37,164 bases of DNA from NCBI GenBank assembly GCA_017694175.1, contig JADINE010000032.1:1-37164 (forward strand), written 5' to 3'. The stretch comes from Candidatus Enterousia excrementavium. GTDB taxonomy: Bacteria > Pseudomonadota > Alphaproteobacteria > Rs-D84. The position numbers and the translations under genes are program-made. The notes below the pieces were generated by a model that had not been told where the DNA came from, did not search any database, and was given only the letters and a program-made list of their open reading frames with translations. Positions 9,066 to 20,620 of this stretch are shown piece after piece; position 1 is the stretch's first letter; the number at the start of each line of letters is the position of its first letter.

Positions 9066-11465
9066 ATGGCGACATTAACACTCGGAAAATCAGTAACTAT
9101 TGACCAGGTGGCCAGCAAAAAGGGCGACGCGGTGTTCGTTGAACGCCGTCGTCGTGTCGTTGCCCCAGGCAGCAAAGAATTACGCGAAGAACCGTCCGCG
9201 CCTGCGCAAACACATAACGCAGCGGATGAAAAATTGCGTGCTGTGCTCGAAGCTGCCCGTGCCCGCGAAGAAGAACGTCGGCAACGTGCCGCAGCCGAAG
9301 CGGCCGCAACCGCCGCGCGCGAGGCTGAAATAGCGCGTGAAACCCGCGAATACGAACAGGTCAAAGAACAACTGGCTGCGCGTGAAAATGTCGCCGAAAC
9401 GCAACCTGCCGAAGAAAATACACCTGTTCGCCCGACCCAGGCTAAAAAGCAATTTTCTCAACCATCGCCGCGCGCAAAACAGAACCGCGACGATGATGAA
9501 GATATGGGAATGGGGCGTGCGTCTAAATTCAGTGGCGGCAAAAAAGAATTCAAAAAAACAGGAAAAATTTCCCTGCACGATATTGTAATTGGTGGCGATG
9601 ACGACGATGATGACGAAATCGGCCTGCGTGGTGCAAATCGTCGCCGGTCCGAAGCGTCGCTGAAACGCTTTCGTGAAAAGGCACGTGCGGTATTTTCTGC
9701 CCCGCAAAAGGTGGAACATGTTGTAACTTTGGGCGACACCATCACAGTCAAAGATTTGGCGGCTGCCATGGCGGAAAAGGTTGGCAACGTTATTAAAAAA
9801 TTAATGGAAATGGGCATGATGGCATCACAAAATCAAACCATCGATGCCGATACAGCCGAACTTGTGGCCGGTGAATTTGGCGCCAAAGTAAAACGTGTTG
9901 TTGTAAAGCCATATGCCGATCAATTGGAACGTGTGCCGAATCCGGAACATATGCAACCGCGCCCGCCTGTGGTAACGGTTGTTGGCCACGTTGATCATGG
10001 TAAAACATCGCTTTTGGATGCGTTCCGGCATGCAAATGTTGCTGCCCGTGAAGCTGGTGGCATTACCCAGCATATTTCTGCATACGAAGTGAAAACTAAA
10101 TCGGGTGCCATGATAACATTTTTGGACACGCCGGGCCATGAAACATTTACAGCCATGCGTGCACGTGGCGCGCAAATGGCGGATATTGTTGTTTTGGTTG
10201 TTGCTGCAAACGATTCCATCATGCCGCAAACAATCGAGGCCATTAATCATATTCGCGCGGCCAAAGTTCCATTTATTGTTGCGATTAACAAAATCGATTT
10301 GCCTGATGCGGATCCAACGCGTGTTAAAACAGATTTGTTGCAACAGGAAGTCCAGGTCGAAGAATTGGGCGGCGATGTACAATGTGTTGAAATTTCCGCA
10401 ACCAAACATATCGGGCTGGAAAAATTGGAAGAAGCCATCTTGTTACAGGCTGGCATCATGGATTTGAAAGCCGATCCAGATATGCCTGCGGTTGCCTATG
10501 TAGTCGAAGCGAAAATGGAACGTGGCCTGGGGGCAACAGCTACAATACTGATGCGCCAGGGCACATTAAGCATTGGCGACGTATTTGTTGTTGGTGAAAC
10601 ATATGGTCGTGTGCGTGGGTTAATAAATTCCGCCGGTGAACGTGTAAAATCTGTAAAACCCGGGCAACCAGTGGTTGTGTTAGGGCTGCAATCTGTCCCC
10701 AGTGCGGGCGACGATTTGCACGTTATGGAAACCGAGGCACAAACCCGTGAAGTTGCCGCATATCGTGCGCAACAGGCGCGTGATCGTGCCAACGCTGTAA
10801 AGCGCACATCGTTACAGGAATTATTCGCGCGTCGCGATGAAACGAAAAAATTGGTGTTGCCAATTGTTTTGCGTGCCGACGTCCAGGGCAGTGTGGAAGC
10901 CATCACTGATATGTTAAAAGACATTCATACAGATAAAGCATCGGTTGAAATCTTGTCATCTGGGGTTGGTCAAATTACCGAAGGCGACATACGTCTGGCC
11001 GCGGCATCTGGGGCTGTCGTGATTGCGTTTAATGTTCGTGCTGATTCAATGGTGCGGGATATGGCGCGCAGCAGTGGTGTTGATATTCGCTATCACAGTG
11101 TTGTGTACCGCATCACCGATGAAATCAAGGAAATTCTGGCTGGCAAATTGGCCCCAGAAAGAAAAGAAAACTTTATAGGATACGCCGATGTTATCGCATT
11201 GTTTACTGTTGGCAAAGGTATACGTGTGGCGGGTTGCCGCGTAACCGAGGGCGTAATTAAAAAAGATGCCTTTGTGCGTTTGCTGCGTAACAATGTCGTT
11301 ATATACGATGGTAAAATCGGGGAACTTCGACGCGAGAAAAATGAAGTTCGCGAAGTCACCGGCGCAGGCGTAGAATTCGGTATGTCTTTTGACAAGTACA
11401 ATGATTTGAAAGAAGGCGACCGGGTTGAATGTTACGAGGTTGAAGAAGTTCGCGCAAAATTATAA
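9066..11465 (+). CDS. infB: Translation initiation factor IF-2
   Basis: GTPase motifs [40 protein letters not shown]2 C-terminal domains. Confidence 0.98.
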
Positions 11466-11495
11466 AAAACACCGCCCATTTGGGCGGTATTTTTA
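11465..11495. terminator. Bidirectional intrinsic terminator between infB and der
   Basis: ACCGCCCA-TT-TGGGCGGT followed by ATTTTTATTT; A-rich on the other side. Confidence 0.8.
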
Positions 11496-12884: not shown

Positions 12885-13505
12885 TTGGGGAAAGAAAAGA
12901 TGAAGAAATTAAAACAGGGATTAAAACGGTTACGTGATTTAATTATCAAACCAAAGCGTTTTTTTACAAGAATTGTCGCTGATGGAAATATGGAAGAATC
13001 CATGTTCAAGGCCTTTATATACGGTCTTATTGGTGGATGCTTGGTATTGTTGTTAAAATTGTGCAGTGGCGCAACGATTACCATCAGTTCGGTATTTTGG
13101 GCGTTGATAATAATTCCGGTTTTGGCGGTGGCATTATTGTACGTCTTGGGCGGATTGATGATGCTGGTTGCTGAAATGACAGACGGCGAACGCGATTGGG
13201 AAATTGCGATAAAGGGGTTGGCGTCTGTATTTTTCGTATATCCGGTTATTTTGGCATTAAATGCATTGGCATTTAATTGTACGTCGATGTGGATTGCAAG
13301 TTTATTGGGTGATGCGTATGTTTTATTCCTGTTTTATAATATAGCACTGTATTGCATGCGTGGCAAACGCAGCAATGTGATAATAGTAATATCTATTTTT
13401 GCGTTATTTTTAATCATGGTATACGCTTCGGATTTCCATACAGGCTGGTTCATGCTTAAAAATCCCGATGCCGCAATGGCATGTGAAGGGTTAATAAACG
13501 CATAA
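12885..13505 (+). CDS. YIP1-family multipass membrane protein
   Basis: Several TM helices and KRFFTRIVADGNMEESMFKAFIYGLIGG, typical of Yip1-domain proteins. Confidence 0.65.
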   Translation: MGKEKMKKLKQGLKRLRDLIIKPKRFFTRIVADGNMEESMFKAFIYGLIGGCLVLLLKLCSGATITISSVFWALIIIPVLAVALLYVLGGLMMLVAEMTDGERDWEIAIKGLASVFFVYPVILALNALAFNCTSMWIASLLGDAYVLFLFYNIALYCMRGKRSNVIIVISIFALFLIMVYASDFHTGWFMLKNPDAAMACEGLINA

Positions 13506-13506
13506 C

Positions 13507-13535
13507 TTGATTTTTTTCGCATTTTGTGATATAAT
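13507..13535 (+). promoter_or_regulatory. Candidate strong sigma70-type promoter
   Basis: TTGATT - 17 bp - TATAAT; predicted start about 13542. Confidence 0.6.
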
Positions 13536-13546
13536 CAGGAACAATC

Positions 13547-13571
13547 AAAACCCCACAGTTTGTGGGGTTTT
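13547..13571 (+). terminator. Intrinsic terminator 1
   Basis: AAAACCCCACA-GTT-TGTGGGGTTTT. Confidence 0.85.
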
Positions 13572-13575
13572 AATT

Positions 13576-13605
13576 TGCCCGGGTTTCATAGCTCGGGCAT
13601 TTTTT
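13576..13605 (+). terminator. Intrinsic terminator 2
   Basis: TGCCCGGG-TTTCATAG-CTCGGGCA followed by TTTTTTATTT. Confidence 0.8.
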
Positions 13606-13627
13606 ATTTAAAAAGAAAGGATGATAA

Positions 13628-14599
13628 ATGTATCTTATAACATATCTTGGCGATGGCACCGCAACAGAATTCAATTTCTCGTTCCCATATTTCCAGGCCG
13701 CCGATGTGCATGTATCTGTCAATTCCGTGATTCAAACATCTGGCGCGTGCACGGTTATCCCGACATCCGAAACCCGTGTTGACGGAAAATATATGGGTGG
13801 CCGCGTGATATTAACCACAGCGCCCGTGGCCGGCGCAGAAATTCGGATTTGGCGAAAAATAGATTTATCGCGCGTGATTGACTATCAACCAACTTTGCCA
13901 ATAAACACAGATTGCCTGAATGCAGATTTTAATTTTATGTTGGAATACCTGCGCGATTTGTATGAATTGGATGGAGATGTAGAAAATATAGAAAACGGAT
14001 TACAGTTTTTGGATTCGATTCAATACCAAATTGAACAACTGGGTGATTTCAGTGAATTGGCGCGCAAAGCCGATTTGCCGGATTTTACCCAATTTGCGAA
14101 ACTTACCGATATTCCAGACACATCTGAATTTGCCGCGGCGAATCACACACACGATATGTCCGCGTATGTAACAAACACTGCACTGGCCGCGACCATATCT
14201 GAATTACAGGACGAAATAGACGACATCGATACCTCGCTGGCATTTCCGATTGAATTTGCCCCTGATGACGAACCAGACGTTGTTGTAAAAACGCAATTGC
14301 CCACGGCGGAAAATAATTATACCTGGTACCGACTGTATAAATCAGGCTGGGTGGAACAGGGCGGCCGAGGTGGCGCGCTTGAAAACAGTGCAAAAATCAT
14401 AACATTGCCGATTGCGATGGCGGACACAAATTTTTATGCGTCTATGATCAACATGGTGCCAGCAACGCCTGTTATAAAAAATTATAATTCTATTGGACTA
14501 TATATCCCAAATAATACCCAGGTCAGATTTGCAACATTGGCCACAGTTACGGATTTTGCATGGTATATCACAGGCATGTCCGCCCAATCAGACCAATAA
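13628..14599 (+). CDS. Phage T7-type tail-fibre N-terminal-domain-like protein
   Basis: N-terminus MYLITYLGDGTATEFNFSFPYFQAADVHVSVN...IWRKIDLSRVIDY...LNADFNFMLEYLRDLYE resembles T7 tail-fibre-type N-terminal domains; coiled-coil-like middle. SD AGAAAGGA. Confidence 0.6.
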   Translation: MYLITYLGDGTATEFNFSFPYFQAADVHVSVNSVIQTSGACTVIPTSETRVDGKYMGGRVILTTAPVAGAEIRIWRKIDLSRVIDYQPTLPINTDCLNADFNFMLEYLRDLYELDGDVENIENGLQFLDSIQYQIEQLGDFSELARKADLPDFTQFAKLTDIPDTSEFAAANHTHDMSAYVTNTALAATISELQDEIDDIDTSLAFPIEFAPDDEPDVVVKTQLPTAENNYTWYRLYKSGWVEQGGRGGALENSAKIITLPIAMADTNFYASMINMVPATPVIKNYNSIGLYIPNNTQVRFATLATVTDFAWYITGMSAQSDQ

Positions 14600-15685
14600 C
14601 ATCGCGACATATGCGAAGATTAATAATATATTCAACCCCAGTAACACATTGAATAAAAATTTGTATTTTTTTATTTTGTGTTTCTGGGTTATATATTGAT
14701 TATTACCGCAAATACGCAGATCAGCATTTTTACCTAATTTAGATTTGATAAAATCTGAATAAGATTTATTTTTCATAAACATGTTGTATGCGTTGGGATC
14801 AGCCATTAATCTGTGAAATGTATAGTTTGCCCATAACTTTTTTATTGAGTCTGATGTATTTTCCGCAATTTGCGTTAGAATAACAGGTATATTTAAAGGA
14901 GTGACACTTTGTTCACCAATTACATCAGAAAACATATCATGGAATAATTTTGTGTCCTTGATTTCCAGGAATTTATCCAGCATAAAAAATTTTTCGGACA
15001 TATCTGTCATATTAGATATCCACCCAGAAACATTTGTTTTATGGTCGATAATTCTGTATTTCGTCAGCGGTATTTCCAATACTTTGATTTTGGTTTGCAA
15101 CAATGTGTTTATATGGAAATATCCATCGCCACATGATAACAAATGCGCATTAAAATAAATTGCGAATTGGCGTCTGAACATTTCAGTTGGGAAAGCCAAA
15201 AAATTATATACATCAAACGCCTTGCGTAACATTTCCGCGCGTGTTCCTGCGGGATTATTAATCAAATTGCATATTGTTGTCGCAGTCGGCGAGTGCGACT
15301 GATTCCCGTTAACATCGATTGGATTTATGTATGCAAATACTGCGCCATAGTCAGGATTTTGATCCAGAAATTCCGTTTGTATCCAAAGTTTGTTTGGATA
15401 AAATATATCATCGCCGTCCAATATGGTGATATATTTGCCTGTTGCATTCTGTATACCAATATTCAAATTTTCCACCGGTCCCAAATTTTTATCATTGCGA
15501 ATATATTTTATGCGCGGATCCTTGAACGATAATATCACTGATTCAGTTCCGTCCGTTGATGCGTCATTTATTACAATTAATTCCCAATCAGAAAGCGTTT
15601 GATTTAACACAGATTGAATCGCTTGGTTTATAAAGCGTTCCTGGTTATACGTCCTGCAAATTACACTGACGGTTGGATTTTTCAT
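14588..15685 (-). CDS. Family 2 glycosyltransferase with C-terminal TM helix
   Basis: VSVICRTYNQERFINQAIQSVLNQTLSDWELIVINDASTDGT, ILDGDD. Confidence 0.93.
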   Translation of the reverse strand: MKNPTVSVICRTYNQERFINQAIQSVLNQTLSDWELIVINDASTDGTESVILSFKDPRIKYIRNDKNLGPVENLNIGIQNATGKYITILDGDDIFYPNKLWIQTEFLDQNPDYGAVFAYINPIDVNGNQSHSPTATTICNLINNPAGTRAEMLRKAFDVYNFLAFPTEMFRRQFAIYFNAHLLSCGDGYFHINTLLQTKIKVLEIPLTKYRIIDHKTNVSGWISNMTDMSEKFFMLDKFLEIKDTKLFHDMFSDVIGEQSVTPLNIPVILTQIAENTSDSIKKLWANYTFHRLMADPNAYNMFMKNKSYSDFIKSKLGKNADLRICGNNQYITQKHKIKKYKFLFNVLLGLNILLIFAYVAMLLV

Positions 15686-15694
15686 AATTGTTCC

Positions 15695-16300
15695 CTATCT
15701 GTTTAATGGTTTACAAATTTGTGTTGTTGTTAAATTTTTTGTATCCAGGATGGATGCAAATGCCATACCACGAATATTACGTGATTGTCCCACAGACCCG
15801 GGGTTCAAAACCAGTTTGTCGCCGCGTTTGAATTCCATTGGATGATGTGTGTGTCCAATGCATATAACGTTATATTGTAAATTAAATAAGTCATCAATAC
15901 GCTTGCTGTTATCCGGGTAAATATATTCTTCCAGATGATTCCATGGACTGGCGTGGCAACATAAAAAATTTTTCCCATCCGTGTTAAATTCCAAGTAATC
16001 AGGTAATTTGGACAACCACAGTTTATTTTCTGGTGTTATATTATCACGTGCATATTGCACCCAGTATTTTACATTGTCGTTTACAGGGCGCGTAAAATCG
16101 TGCAACATATAATGGTCATGGTTGCCCATAATGCACTGAACATTATTTGTACGTAAAAAATCAATAACAGGATTAACATATTGGTTATAACCAACCGCAT
16201 CCCCCAGGCATATAACCTTATCAACCGAATCCATATATGGTGCAATCATATTCAACGCATGCATATTTGCGTGAATATCAGACATTATTAATATTTTCAT
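15695..16300 (-). CDS. Metallophosphoesterase (YfcE/MJ0936-type)
   Basis: MSDIHANMHAL, CLGDAVGYN, MGNHDHY, GHTHHPMEF, LNPGSVGQSR. Confidence 0.92.
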   Translation of the reverse strand: MKILIMSDIHANMHALNMIAPYMDSVDKVICLGDAVGYNQYVNPVIDFLRTNNVQCIMGNHDHYMLHDFTRPVNDNVKYWVQYARDNITPENKLWLSKLPDYLEFNTDGKNFLCCHASPWNHLEEYIYPDNSKRIDDLFNLQYNVICIGHTHHPMEFKRGDKLVLNPGSVGQSRNIRGMAFASILDTKNLTTTQICKPLNR

Positions 16301-17156
16301 AATAATTTTTTATGTTTTTGATTGTTTCACGTATATCTATTTTGGGCACGAATCCGAAATCATTATATGCCTTGGATGTTGATATAACCCATTTATCATT
16401 TTCCAATGCATCAGCACCACTGAAAACAATATTGGATCGAGATTTACATACATCGATACATATTTGCGCCAATTCCAGATTAGAATAACTGTGTGCCCCC
16501 GCCAGGTTATAAACGCCGCTAATATCTTTATCAGAATTTATGATATTACGTACAGCATTGGCGATATCTGCGACATCAATATAATTCTGTATGCGTCCAC
16601 CATTACCCACCAGGGTAATATCCTGATTTTTTATGGCGTTTGATATAAATACAGACAATATCTTATTGTCTGACATTCCAACACCAACTGGTGACGGTAT
16701 ACGTAACGAAACCCCGTTATATATACCAGTAATATATTCGCCAAATAATTTAGAAGCATGATACGCAGAATTTGGATTTGTCGGATGATTTTCTGTTATT
16801 GGTATTTGAATTGGCGTTCCAATCACAGGAATACTGGAAATGAAAATAATTTTAGCATTATTTTTGATTGCTAAATCTGCAACATTCATAATGCCTAAAC
16901 AATTTGCAGAAATTAAATTTTTATTTGTATTGTCGTGCGAAACACACGCCCCAACATGTATAATGTAATCAAATTTGTGATTATTAAATGCAGGTACAAA
17001 ATTTGTATCGGAAAAATCCGCCGATACATAATCAACATTTGGCACAACAGATTTATCCTGGCGACCATTTGCGGTTATATCAAATTCGTCCATTAAATTT
17101 TTCACTATGGATTTTCCTATAAATCCATTTGCGCCGGTAATCAACAGTGTTTTCAT
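16278..17156 (-). CDS. NAD-dependent epimerase/dehydratase (extended SDR)
   Basis: LLITGANGFIGKSIV, YHASKLFGE (YxxxK). Confidence 0.92.
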   Translation of the reverse strand: MKTLLITGANGFIGKSIVKNLMDEFDITANGRQDKSVVPNVDYVSADFSDTNFVPAFNNHKFDYIIHVGACVSHDNTNKNLISANCLGIMNVADLAIKNNAKIIFISSIPVIGTPIQIPITENHPTNPNSAYHASKLFGEYITGIYNGVSLRIPSPVGVGMSDNKILSVFISNAIKNQDITLVGNGGRIQNYIDVADIANAVRNIINSDKDISGVYNLAGAHSYSNLELAQICIDVCKSRSNIVFSGADALENDKWVISTSKAYNDFGFVPKIDIRETIKNIKNYYENINNV

Positions 17157-18130
17157 TTTGAATATCCTATCAGTTTTTCTGTTTGGTATCTGATAACTTT
17201 TGCCTGTTTTATATCAAAACAATCATCTGCCGACTGTCCGGTTAAATGTTCGCGCAGTGCGGCAACAACGTCACGAAATCCCAGTAAATCGCGCATAGGC
17301 GTTGTTCCAGAAAATCGAACATTTAATTCAAAACATGTTGGCCGCCCATTGTGCATGCGCAATTGTATATTTAATGGTCCAATTGGACGGAACGCTTCGC
17401 AAATTTTTAATGCCTGGTTATATATAACATTGTCAAACACAGGTTCTGCAATCATAGTTGTTCCATGTTCTAATTTGCGTTTCATAGTGATTATTTCTGT
17501 TTTACTGTTTGATTTATGCGAATAACAGGCAACTGTATATTCCGAATTATCATCCCCCAGCATTTGTTCAACCACATAGTTTTGTTTTGGTATTTGTAAA
17601 ATATCGTTTTGGTTGCATACTTTGATTATGCCATTGCTGCCTTTGCCGTTACGGGGTTTTGCTATCAGTGGAAAACCAGCCATTGCAGCCAGTTTGTTTA
17701 CAGCGTTTTTATCTGATGCATCTGCAAATAACGGATAATTGCATCCATTATTTTTTAACCACAGGCATGTTTTTAATTTATCATTACCAATTTCCAATTG
17801 ATTTGGTGTTGCAACTAAAAATTTTGCCGCGGTTTTGGATTGCAGTTCTGGTAAATGGGTTGATATTGCATATATATTTTCTTCAACCCCGGATAAAACC
17901 ATATCTATATTTTTATTATTACAAATATTTATCAGCCACGGTATAAATTTTGCATCGGCTGCCAATGGGGATACATGATATTCATCCACAAAATATTGAC
18001 CAATGGAATCATTTGTTATACACGCGCCAACAATATTCATATCTATGCCAGAATTACGCAACACGGAAACAATGCCACGGCTGACATTGCCACTGACACC
18101 CAAAACCAGAATGTTATATTTATTTGTCAT
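17153..18130 (-). CDS. ATP-grasp domain protein (CarB/PylC-like)
   Basis: GFPLIAKPRNGKGSNGI, YVVEQMLGDDNSEYTVACY, FELNVRFSGTTPM. Confidence 0.88.
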   Translation of the reverse strand: MTNKYNILVLGVSGNVSRGIVSVLRNSGIDMNIVGACITNDSIGQYFVDEYHVSPLAADAKFIPWLINICNNKNIDMVLSGVEENIYAISTHLPELQSKTAAKFLVATPNQLEIGNDKLKTCLWLKNNGCNYPLFADASDKNAVNKLAAMAGFPLIAKPRNGKGSNGIIKVCNQNDILQIPKQNYVVEQMLGDDNSEYTVACYSHKSNSKTEIITMKRKLEHGTTMIAEPVFDNVIYNQALKICEAFRPIGPLNIQLRMHNGRPTCFELNVRFSGTTPMRDLLGFRDVVAALREHLTGQSADDCFDIKQAKVIRYQTEKLIGYSK

Positions 18131-19487
18131 TCATCAACCCCAACAATTTTTTGCACCACTTTGTGCCCTCGTAATTATCGATGAAAAATTGATAATTAGA
18201 TTCAGCAATTTCATGCCGCAATTTTTCATCATACATTAATTTTTCAATTCCATTTATCATATCAGGAACATTATCAAACGCAAAAGGGTAATTTTCCGGC
18301 ATATATTCATGGAACGTCCACATTGGATTTTCGCGATTGATTTTAATAACGTTCGCCACCCCCAGGCTTATCAAATCAATCTGGGTCAGTGCGCTGGACA
18401 CAGGAAACGAATCAATAAACACGTCTGCGCATTTGAATATAATTTTGTAATCAGGCGTTCTTGGAATAATATGCAAACGTTGTCCAACGTCGGTTTTTTC
18501 AAATATGCTATGCAGAATATTTTGTTGTGTTATATTCAGTTTATCAGTCAACATCACGTGTCGCATATTTGGATTGCGTTCCAAAAGTGTGCGAATCATT
18601 TCAAAATATGGCGATGTATTATTATCCATATCAAAAAATTTATTTACATCAGCACCGCTGATGGTCAAAATATTATCAGGTCCCGCCCCCAGTTTTTGGC
18701 GCATGCCACTGATATCATCGTCTGAAAATTTTGGCAAACACCGTAACGGTAAATATGGCAACCCAACAACAGCTGTGTTGTTAAAACCACGTTGGACACG
18801 GGTAATTTCTGCGGTGGTGGCGGTACCTTCGAGTATTAAATCGGCAAAACTCATACCCAAAGTTGCACTGTGCGACATATGATTATAAAATAAAATTTTA
18901 ATTCCTGATTTTTGCAACATGCACAGCAACATGGCGCCAAATACATCGTCTGGGTGGGTAAAAGCCAAAACTATGCGTGGACACATGGCAATGATTTGTT
19001 TATACGCCGAATATAATTTGCGTTTGTATAAGAACATGCCCTTAAAATCGATGCCAGATACATGCGCGCGCTGTGATAAAAAATCGAAATTGTACGCTGC
19101 ATCATGTTGTGATGTTGTCAACCGTGTAAAAAATATAGCCGTTTTCCAATCGTTTGGCCATGACAAGATTATGTTTTTAATACATTCTGTGTGCCCGCCA
19201 ACATCATAAATTTCGCTGGCCAAAATCACCACAGATTTATCAGATGGTCCGGCGTGCACAACCGACAAGCCGCGCACAGCATTGCGAATATCATCATCAA
19301 TGTGTTTGGTGTCAAAATTTTTGTTTCGAGCAAATTTGTTTTGTATGTATATTATTTTGCTGGATATGTATAACACTGGAATCAAACACAGGAACAAAAA
19401 CAGTACGCCGTTACCCACACGTTTACGGCGCACTGCCCTGATACCCATGAAACGGTATTTATCGCGACACCAGCCAAACAGTTTCAT
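18120..19487 (-). CDS. Glycosyltransferase (GT-B/GT4-like) with N-terminal TM helix
   Basis: ILASEIYDVGGHTECIKNIILSW, C-terminal sugar-nucleotide-domain texture (IIFKCADVFIDSFPVSSALTQIDLISLGVANV). Confidence 0.75.
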   Translation of the reverse strand: MKLFGWCRDKYRFMGIRAVRRKRVGNGVLFLFLCLIPVLYISSKIIYIQNKFARNKNFDTKHIDDDIRNAVRGLSVVHAGPSDKSVVILASEIYDVGGHTECIKNIILSWPNDWKTAIFFTRLTTSQHDAAYNFDFLSQRAHVSGIDFKGMFLYKRKLYSAYKQIIAMCPRIVLAFTHPDDVFGAMLLCMLQKSGIKILFYNHMSHSATLGMSFADLILEGTATTAEITRVQRGFNNTAVVGLPYLPLRCLPKFSDDDISGMRQKLGAGPDNILTISGADVNKFFDMDNNTSPYFEMIRTLLERNPNMRHVMLTDKLNITQQNILHSIFEKTDVGQRLHIIPRTPDYKIIFKCADVFIDSFPVSSALTQIDLISLGVANVIKINRENPMWTFHEYMPENYPFAFDNVPDMINGIEKLMYDEKLRHEIAESNYQFFIDNYEGTKWCKKLLGLMNDK

Positions 19488-20620
19488 CGTACTTTTTCCA
19501 AAAATTTGTTTGCTGTTTCAATAACACGTGCCTGATCCGATTTAGCCATATTGTAATACAGCGGCAACCGCACCAACGTATCACCAACCCGGTCTGTCAC
19601 AGACATATCCCCAGCCACGCGGCCAAATTTCTGACCGGCAGGCGACGAATGCAATGGCACATAGTGGAACACGCACATTATATCGTTATCTTTCATGTGG
19701 CGAATGAACGCACTGCGCATGGACAAATCCGGGAACCGCAGATAATACATATGTGCATTATGTGTGCAGTGCGCCGGGATAAACGGTGTGCGCACCACAG
19801 ATTTATATTGTACAAAATTGTCGTTATATATTTTCCAAGTGCGCATACGATTAGCATTAATATCGTCCATTTTTAACAGTTGTGGATATAAATACGCAGC
19901 ATTCATATCGCCCGGCAAATACGACGATCCAACGTCCACCCATGTGTATTTATCAACCTGGCCGCGGAAAAACCGACTGCGGTTAGTACCTTTTTCGCGA
20001 ATGATTTCAGCCGGTTCAACCAATTCAGGATGATTAACCAAAATTGCACCACCTTCGCCACTGGAAATATTTTTTGTTTCATGAAAAGAAAAACAGCCCA
20101 AATCACCAATCGCACCCAGCGCGCGACCCTTGTAAAAACTGCCCACAGCCTGGGCGGCATCTTCGACCACCCGCAGGTTGTGTTCACGTGCAATTTCCAT
20201 AATTTTATCCATTTCGCAACCAACGCCCGCATAATGCACAGGTGCAATTGCACGTGTTTTGGGTGTGATTGCGTCCTGTATCTTGGATTCGTCCAGATTC
20301 AATGTATCGTCGCGAATATCAACGAACACAATTTTTGCGCCACGTAATACAAACGCATTTGCAGTTGATACAAATGTGTAAGATGGGCAAATAACTTCGT
20401 CCCCGGGTTTTATATCAGATAACAACGCGGCCATTTCCAGTGCGGCTGTACCGCTGTGCACCAACAGTGCCTTTTGCGTGCCGGTGCGCTTTTCCAAAAT
20501 TTCGTTGCATAACTTGGTATATTTGCCATCCCCACTGATATGCGCAGATTTAATAGCATCCTGGATATATTTGAATTCTGTTCCCAAAAACGGTGCGCGA
20601 TTAAATAAAATTTTTTCCAT
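19484..20620 (-). CDS. rffA: dTDP-4-amino-4,6-dideoxygalactose transaminase (RffA/WecE-like, DegT family)
   Basis: FNRAPFLGTEFKYIQDAI, ICPSYTFVSTANAFVLRGA, GCFSFHETKNISSGEGGAI (PLP lysine). Confidence 0.93.
   Translation of the reverse strand: MEKILFNRAPFLGTEFKYIQDAIKSAHISGDGKYTKLCNEILEKRTGTQKALLVHSGTAALEMAALLSDIKPGDEVICPSYTFVSTANAFVLRGAKIVFVDIRDDTLNLDESKIQDAITPKTRAIAPVHYAGVGCEMDKIMEIAREHNLRVVEDAAQAVGSFYKGRALGAIGDLGCFSFHETKNISSGEGGAILVNHPELVEPAEIIREKGTNRSRFFRGQVDKYTWVDVGSSYLPGDMNAAYLYPQLLKMDDINANRMRTWKIYNDNFVQYKSVVRTPFIPAHCTHNAHMYYLRFPDLSMRSAFIRHMKDNDIMCVFHYVPLHSSPAGQKFGRVAGDMSVTDRVGDTLVRLPLYYNMAKSDQARVIETANKFLEKVR

Follow-up and report, generated by a model that had tools for sequence, protein, structure and literature searches.

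Tandem terminators directly behind a distinctive promoter precede dispersed phage-type genes in Candidatus Enterousia and probably mark a regulon switched on by antitermination

A phage tail-fibre gene in Candidatus Enterousia, gut Alphaproteobacteria, is preceded by a promoter that leads straight into two predicted terminators, and the same arrangement stands before phage-type genes at scattered loci throughout the genus. The architecture is conserved with these genes, the hairpin arms vary but keep their pairing, and the promoters carry an element that ordinary promoters of the same genomes have less often. We consider it probable that a processive antiterminator of the lambda-Q/AlpA/GafZ type, loaded at the promoter, turns on a dispersed regulon from a domesticated podovirus-like, gene-transfer-agent-like (GTA-like) element. 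The DNA analysed (the window) is a 37,164-nt stretch of the 0.85 Mb source genome (G000).

The features around the fibre gene are collected in Table 1. The promoter, both hairpins and the fibre start codon lie where the initial annotation had placed them, with a 17-nt spacer in the promoter. That the promoter follows the stop of the upstream gene was also correct, the −35 element beginning 2 nt past the stop codon (13503-13505); the name YIP1 given to that gene was not upheld, as Pfam returned no such assignment at E 0.001. The downstream product is tail-fibre-like, as had been proposed. The 86-nt leader (13542-13627) folds as exactly T1 and T2, at -32.4 kcal/mol against -16.0 +/- 2.6 kcal/mol for shuffles (z -6.25). 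T2 looks the stronger predicted terminator of the pair because the tail after T1 is short (TTTTAATTT). The distance from T2 to the ATG is 28 nt, which is too short to hold a second promoter. Elsewhere in the window there is a bidirectional terminator between the IF-2 and Der genes (11465-11494), and a surface-sugar cluster (glycosyltransferase, epimerase, ATP-grasp and DegT aminotransferase; 14588-20620, minus strand) adjoins the fibre gene in convergent orientation.

Table 1. Promoter, leader and fibre-gene features in the window
Feature	Position	Strand	Basis
-35 element TTGATT	13507..13512	+	Sequence; exact fit to the genus-wide promoter pattern
T-tract immediately 3' of the -35, part of the module-specific promoter element	13513..13515	+	Each of the three is T in 88-94% of 36 module promoters vs 28-32% of 59 ordinary extended -10 promoters
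TTT, TG extension (13527-13528) and -10 TATAAT (13530-13535)	13523..13535	+	TTT ahead of TG in 94-100% of module promoters vs 49-66%
Predicted transcription start (~+1)	13542	+	Distance from the -10
Terminator hairpin T1, 11 bp, 3-nt loop	13547..13571	+	Sequence, folding
Terminator hairpin T2, 10 bp, 4-nt loop (13576-13599), with U-tract 13600-13609 (TTTTTTATTT)	13576..13609	+	Sequence, folding
Ribosome-binding site AAAGGA	13616..13621	+	Sequence
Fibre gene, 323 aa, T7-type N-terminal attachment domain	13628..14599	+	PF03906, E 4.6e-08; PHROG tail families

Taken singly, such elements occur in this stretch at chance level, with 39 promoter-like matches found vs 40.0 expected and 14 terminator-like matches vs 14.4, and therefore conservation alone can decide. 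The exact promoter pattern, allowing at most one mismatch, was found in 57 of 59 genus genomes and not at all in the reversed control. Judged by genome comparison, the combination of promoter and terminators is not a product of chance, because the promoter pattern is genus-wide and the terminator pairs in homologous leaders exceed those in shuffles.

The comparison of fibre homologues separates two settings. The module (the promoter with one or more terminators behind it) precedes all 17 solitary homologues with the T7-type domain; two terminators were scored at 13 of these loci and a single one at four. It precedes none of the 22 homologues located within an operon. Were the hairpins the ordinary terminators of the upstream gene, next to a chance promoter, one could point to the frequency of the single elements and to the orientation of the upstream genes at module loci, most of which run in the same direction (17 same, 4 opposite). 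However, the order and spacing are constant beside unrelated upstream genes of either orientation, the reversed control lacks the exact promoter pattern, and the module divides the solitary from the in-operon homologues without exception. Conservation thus refutes this explanation, to which we give next to no credence, and the initial annotation was right that the terminators do not simply end the upstream gene. Its own refuting observation, hairpins that are not conserved with the gene, was not what we found. In another family (G043), a 468-aa T7-domain fibre gene (L063) is also situated behind a promoter-like sequence and a terminator; from this locus, the device may extend beyond the genus.

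The likely origin of the fibre gene emerges from two designs among the congeners. In the first, a T7-type adaptor of ~185 aa is encoded within the structural operon, and solitary Mtd_N fibres lie elsewhere. In the second, represented by G000, the operon passes from a 115-aa gene straight to the terminase without an adaptor, the T7 domain is carried by a solitary full-length fibre, and no Mtd_N gene was found. A few genomes (G002, G029 and G032) combine the two. The N-terminal 120 residues of the window fibre are 42-50% identical to the in-operon adaptor of the congeners. Most likely, the gene represents the adaptor plus fibre of the particle, relocated out of the operon; its product would be the receptor-binding part of a phage-derived particle.

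The operon itself is podovirus-like. In G010 it encodes a head-tail connector, capsid, tail-tube proteins, an adaptor and part of the large terminase, and the same operon is found in G000 on contigs C26 and C35. Of 39 genus genomes, 36 have the capsid, almost invariably as a single copy, at 67-93% identity. The first gene of the operon occurs in 100 of 114 genomes of the order, spanning 14 of 18 genera; it has a weak endolysin-family match, and by its motifs we take it to resemble a SleB-type wall hydrolase.

Leaders of this operon carry the same module. A promoter of the form TTGAC-17-xAxxxT with a TG extension was present at 80/80 loci, 73 of which also had two scored terminators. In two further sets, which overlap with each other and with the set of 80, the figures were 30/30 for the promoter with 26/30 for two terminators, and 21/21 with 20/21. 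At least two terminators were thus scored in 26 of 30 leaders where shuffles gave an expectation of 0.05. Stem pairing was tallied per hairpin against permuted arms. Across the 80 loci, the outer five stem positions were paired in 97% (T1) and 99.7% (T2) of cases, vs 45% and 49% when the 3' arms were permuted, and all six standard pair types were represented. The arms vary yet pair. RNAalifold, run on 30 of the operon leaders, predicted no pairs owing to MAFFT misalignment of the variable stems. The median distance from T2 to the start codon was 28 nt in 72 operon leaders, and therefore a second promoter does not fit here either.

Other phage-type genes are likewise equipped. We read 24 exact promoter sites in the genus genomes: a terminator was scored after 20 and was visible after one more, and these 21 precede T7N or Mtd fibres, MuF-lysins, lysozymes or a DuOB protein. 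The other three exact sites precede SocA/Panacea genes (L439, L444 and L456) without terminators, and therefore the promoter by itself also occurs outside the device. When all 860 genes of G010 were read, clear modules were seen only at phage-type genes, one methylase and a DuOB/DUF488 pair; the module-bearing loci are the structural operon, a MuF-fused lysozyme, another lysozyme, a MuF-GH108 endolysin, Mtd fibres, the C5 DNA methylase and the DuOB/DUF488 pair. The methylase (L177:11532-12419) is followed by a nuclease-like gene. The DuOB protein stands under the same module at L160:7814-8891, with DUF488, and again at L462. Fusions of a MuF-like domain to lysozyme or GH108 domains were seen at L155:12285-13142, L436, L438 and L461; their make-up suggests that these lysins may be carried inside the particle. 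Genus-wide, the module was present at 7 of 14 phage-lysozyme genes and 12 of 27 GH108 genes, including that of G000; about half of the lysozyme and GH108 genes lack it, some of them being host-type or having misplaced starts. G020, without the capsid and the first operon gene, keeps one clear module, at a MuF-family gene adjoining a lysozyme. The sampled genomes are related, so that the locus counts given here are not independent events. A loose scan of G010 for a promoter with two terminators yielded 10 sites, 6 of them convincing, vs 2-8 in Markov-random genomes; being near random, it is given no weight, which is placed only on the strict pattern, on its association with particular genes and on the comparison of homologues.

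An ordinary repressor or activator might instead govern initiation, with the terminators merely cutting leakage into costly or lytic genes and strong initiation reading through. The promoters are strong, leaky products such as lysins would do harm, and a few loci have only a single scored terminator, as might be expected of such insulation. Nevertheless, two good terminators in series would block most of the induced transcription too, and insulating terminators would be expected upstream of a promoter rather than ~10-30 nt past the start at every locus. We regard this explanation as unlikely.

What the loci share is informative about how the terminators could be passed. The stem sequences of the solitary loci are unrelated from one locus to the next, and the DNA that all loci have in common is mainly the promoter, special element included. 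What sets module promoters apart from the ordinary extended −10 promoters of these genomes is a T-tract at either end of the spacer (Table 1); the tracts are fixed and the spacer is exactly 17 nt, but there is no inverted repeat. The operon promoters have in common TTGACTTT, the 17-nt spacer and the TG. The transcripts of different solitary loci are unrelated in sequence, which makes a factor that reads the RNA appear unlikely, and the shared DNA points to loading at the promoter as the simplest reading, in the manner of Q, AlpA and GafZ (PMC9371919, PMC11150451). In the operon leaders, a −10-like hexamer lies near +13, with A2 and T6 in 70% of 73 leaders; such a pause-type sequence was not evident in the solitary modules.

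The same observations bear on two readings centred on the RNA. The initial annotation had offered a short two-hairpin RNA as one possibility. Working terminators would imply RNAs of ~30 and 65 nt whenever the promoter fires, and to that extent the proposal holds, such RNA being the expected by-product; a functional role, as a regulatory small RNA or a decoy, with only leakage to express the downstream gene, found no support. The RNA sequences differ wholly between loci of constant architecture, leaving no common base-pairing target, and the module always adjoins a Shine-Dalgarno sequence and start codon. We consider this highly improbable as the purpose of the device. The label of attenuator fared no better in its classical, cis-acting sense. 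Terminators do lie in the leader between promoter and gene, as they would if the nascent RNA sensed a signal through a riboswitch, T-box or leader peptide. However, T1 follows the start by merely ~5-20 nt without a leader open reading frame, the loci have no conserved unpaired RNA in common, and the leader has no Rfam match, the sole match in the window being the 3' portion of a tRNA gene truncated at the contig end (1-64, plus strand). A cis-acting attenuator therefore has only the slimmest chance of being correct. The remaining suggestion, that the gene needs readthrough or antitermination to be expressed, is strongly favoured by the conservation of the arrangement with the gene, the lack of room for a second promoter and the same arrangement at other phage-type genes.

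On the antitermination reading, a strong sigma-70-type promoter with extra fixed sequence would begin transcription, and the polymerase would be halted within ~30-65 nt by one or two intrinsic terminators, leaving the fibre gene silent. On induction, a factor would board the polymerase at the special promoter so that the terminators are ignored, and the fibre would then be made along with the products of the structural operon and the lysis genes, all under the same device. As in antitermination of the Q/AlpA/GafZ type, the predicted terminators are situated shortly downstream of the promoter and ahead of the genes to be controlled.

Searches for the putative trans-acting factor covered PF06530, PF20057 and the NusG family. 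Neither Phage_antitermQ (PF06530) nor the GafA/GafY-type DUF6456 (PF20057) was found in any of 39 genomes. The absence of matches is not decisive, because Q and AlpA are without sequence homology to each other (PMC9371919) and a factor could escape such searches. One NusG was present in 37 of the 39 genomes and none was detected in two; the lack of a second NusG-family protein argues against antitermination by an RfaH-like NusG paralogue. In phylogenetic profiling, 364 open reading frames of G010 had no counterpart in the capsid-less G020, partly because 49 kb of G020 was left out, and no regulator could be singled out.

Q antitermination in phages lambda, 21 and 82 acts from the late promoter pR', which is followed by a terminator. 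The Enterousia module is alike in having one or more terminators at once after the promoter, in its late, lysis and structural genes and, in the operon leaders, in the −10-like sequence downstream of the start. It differs in that the regulon is chromosomal and multi-locus, that the Phage_antitermQ family is absent and that there is no recognised Q-binding element, only the T-tracts and fixed spacer. Both Q and AlpA require a −10-like sigma-dependent pause sequence (PMC9371919). AlpA of Pseudomonas aeruginosa is a chromosomal Q-like factor that loads between −35 and −10 and bypasses a promoter-proximal terminator before lysis genes (PMC9371919), an arrangement of the kind that we propose for the Enterousia chromosome; unlike that system of one promoter and one terminator, Enterousia has many loci, virion genes included. 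The Caulobacter GTA is controlled by GafY, GafZ and IHF, and GafZ, the antiterminator, is recruited to the promoter between −35 and −10 (Tran and Le 2024, PMC11150451). It too is an alphaproteobacterial domesticated phage in which a promoter-recruited antiterminator passes strong terminators and peripheral genes are co-regulated (PMC11150451), features that would apply to Enterousia on the reading proposed here. However, GafZ acts at a single promoter there, with the terminator positioned behind the first gene, whereas Enterousia has tandem terminators right after the start and many dispersed promoters; moreover, the Enterousia element is podovirus-like and lacks DUF6456. The GTA-like element FpGTA of Faecalibacterium also comes from the gut, is probably podovirus-like and is split over more than one locus (PMC12946183), but its host belongs to an unrelated phylum and the available text of that report does not describe such a promoter device. 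A literature search of limited coverage turned up no publication describing such an element in Enterousia.

We call the particle GTA-like on the grounds that its head and packaging genes are scattered and have been retained by vertical descent; a capacity to package DNA is putative. The chromosome carries head, packaging and tail genes (capsid, connector, tube proteins, part of the large terminase and fibres), maintained vertically and nearly always in one copy across the clade. The dispersed loci sit behind one type of promoter device, from which we infer that they are co-regulated. It seems to us evenly balanced whether the genus as a whole, and probably a family, has a podovirus-derived GTA whose dispersed genes are kept off by tandem promoter-proximal terminators at each locus rather than by promoter repression, and are jointly freed by a new antiterminator without sequence relation to Q or GafA, new fibres and lysins joining the particle by gaining the cassette. 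If this is true, antitermination would be the common on-switch of a dispersed domesticated-phage regulon, acting at many promoters at once, and the hunt for the missing antiterminator would become concrete. The promoter-terminator cassette would then serve as a sequence signature for GTA accessory genes in uncultured bacteria, and control by terminator bypass may have arisen more than once in GTAs.
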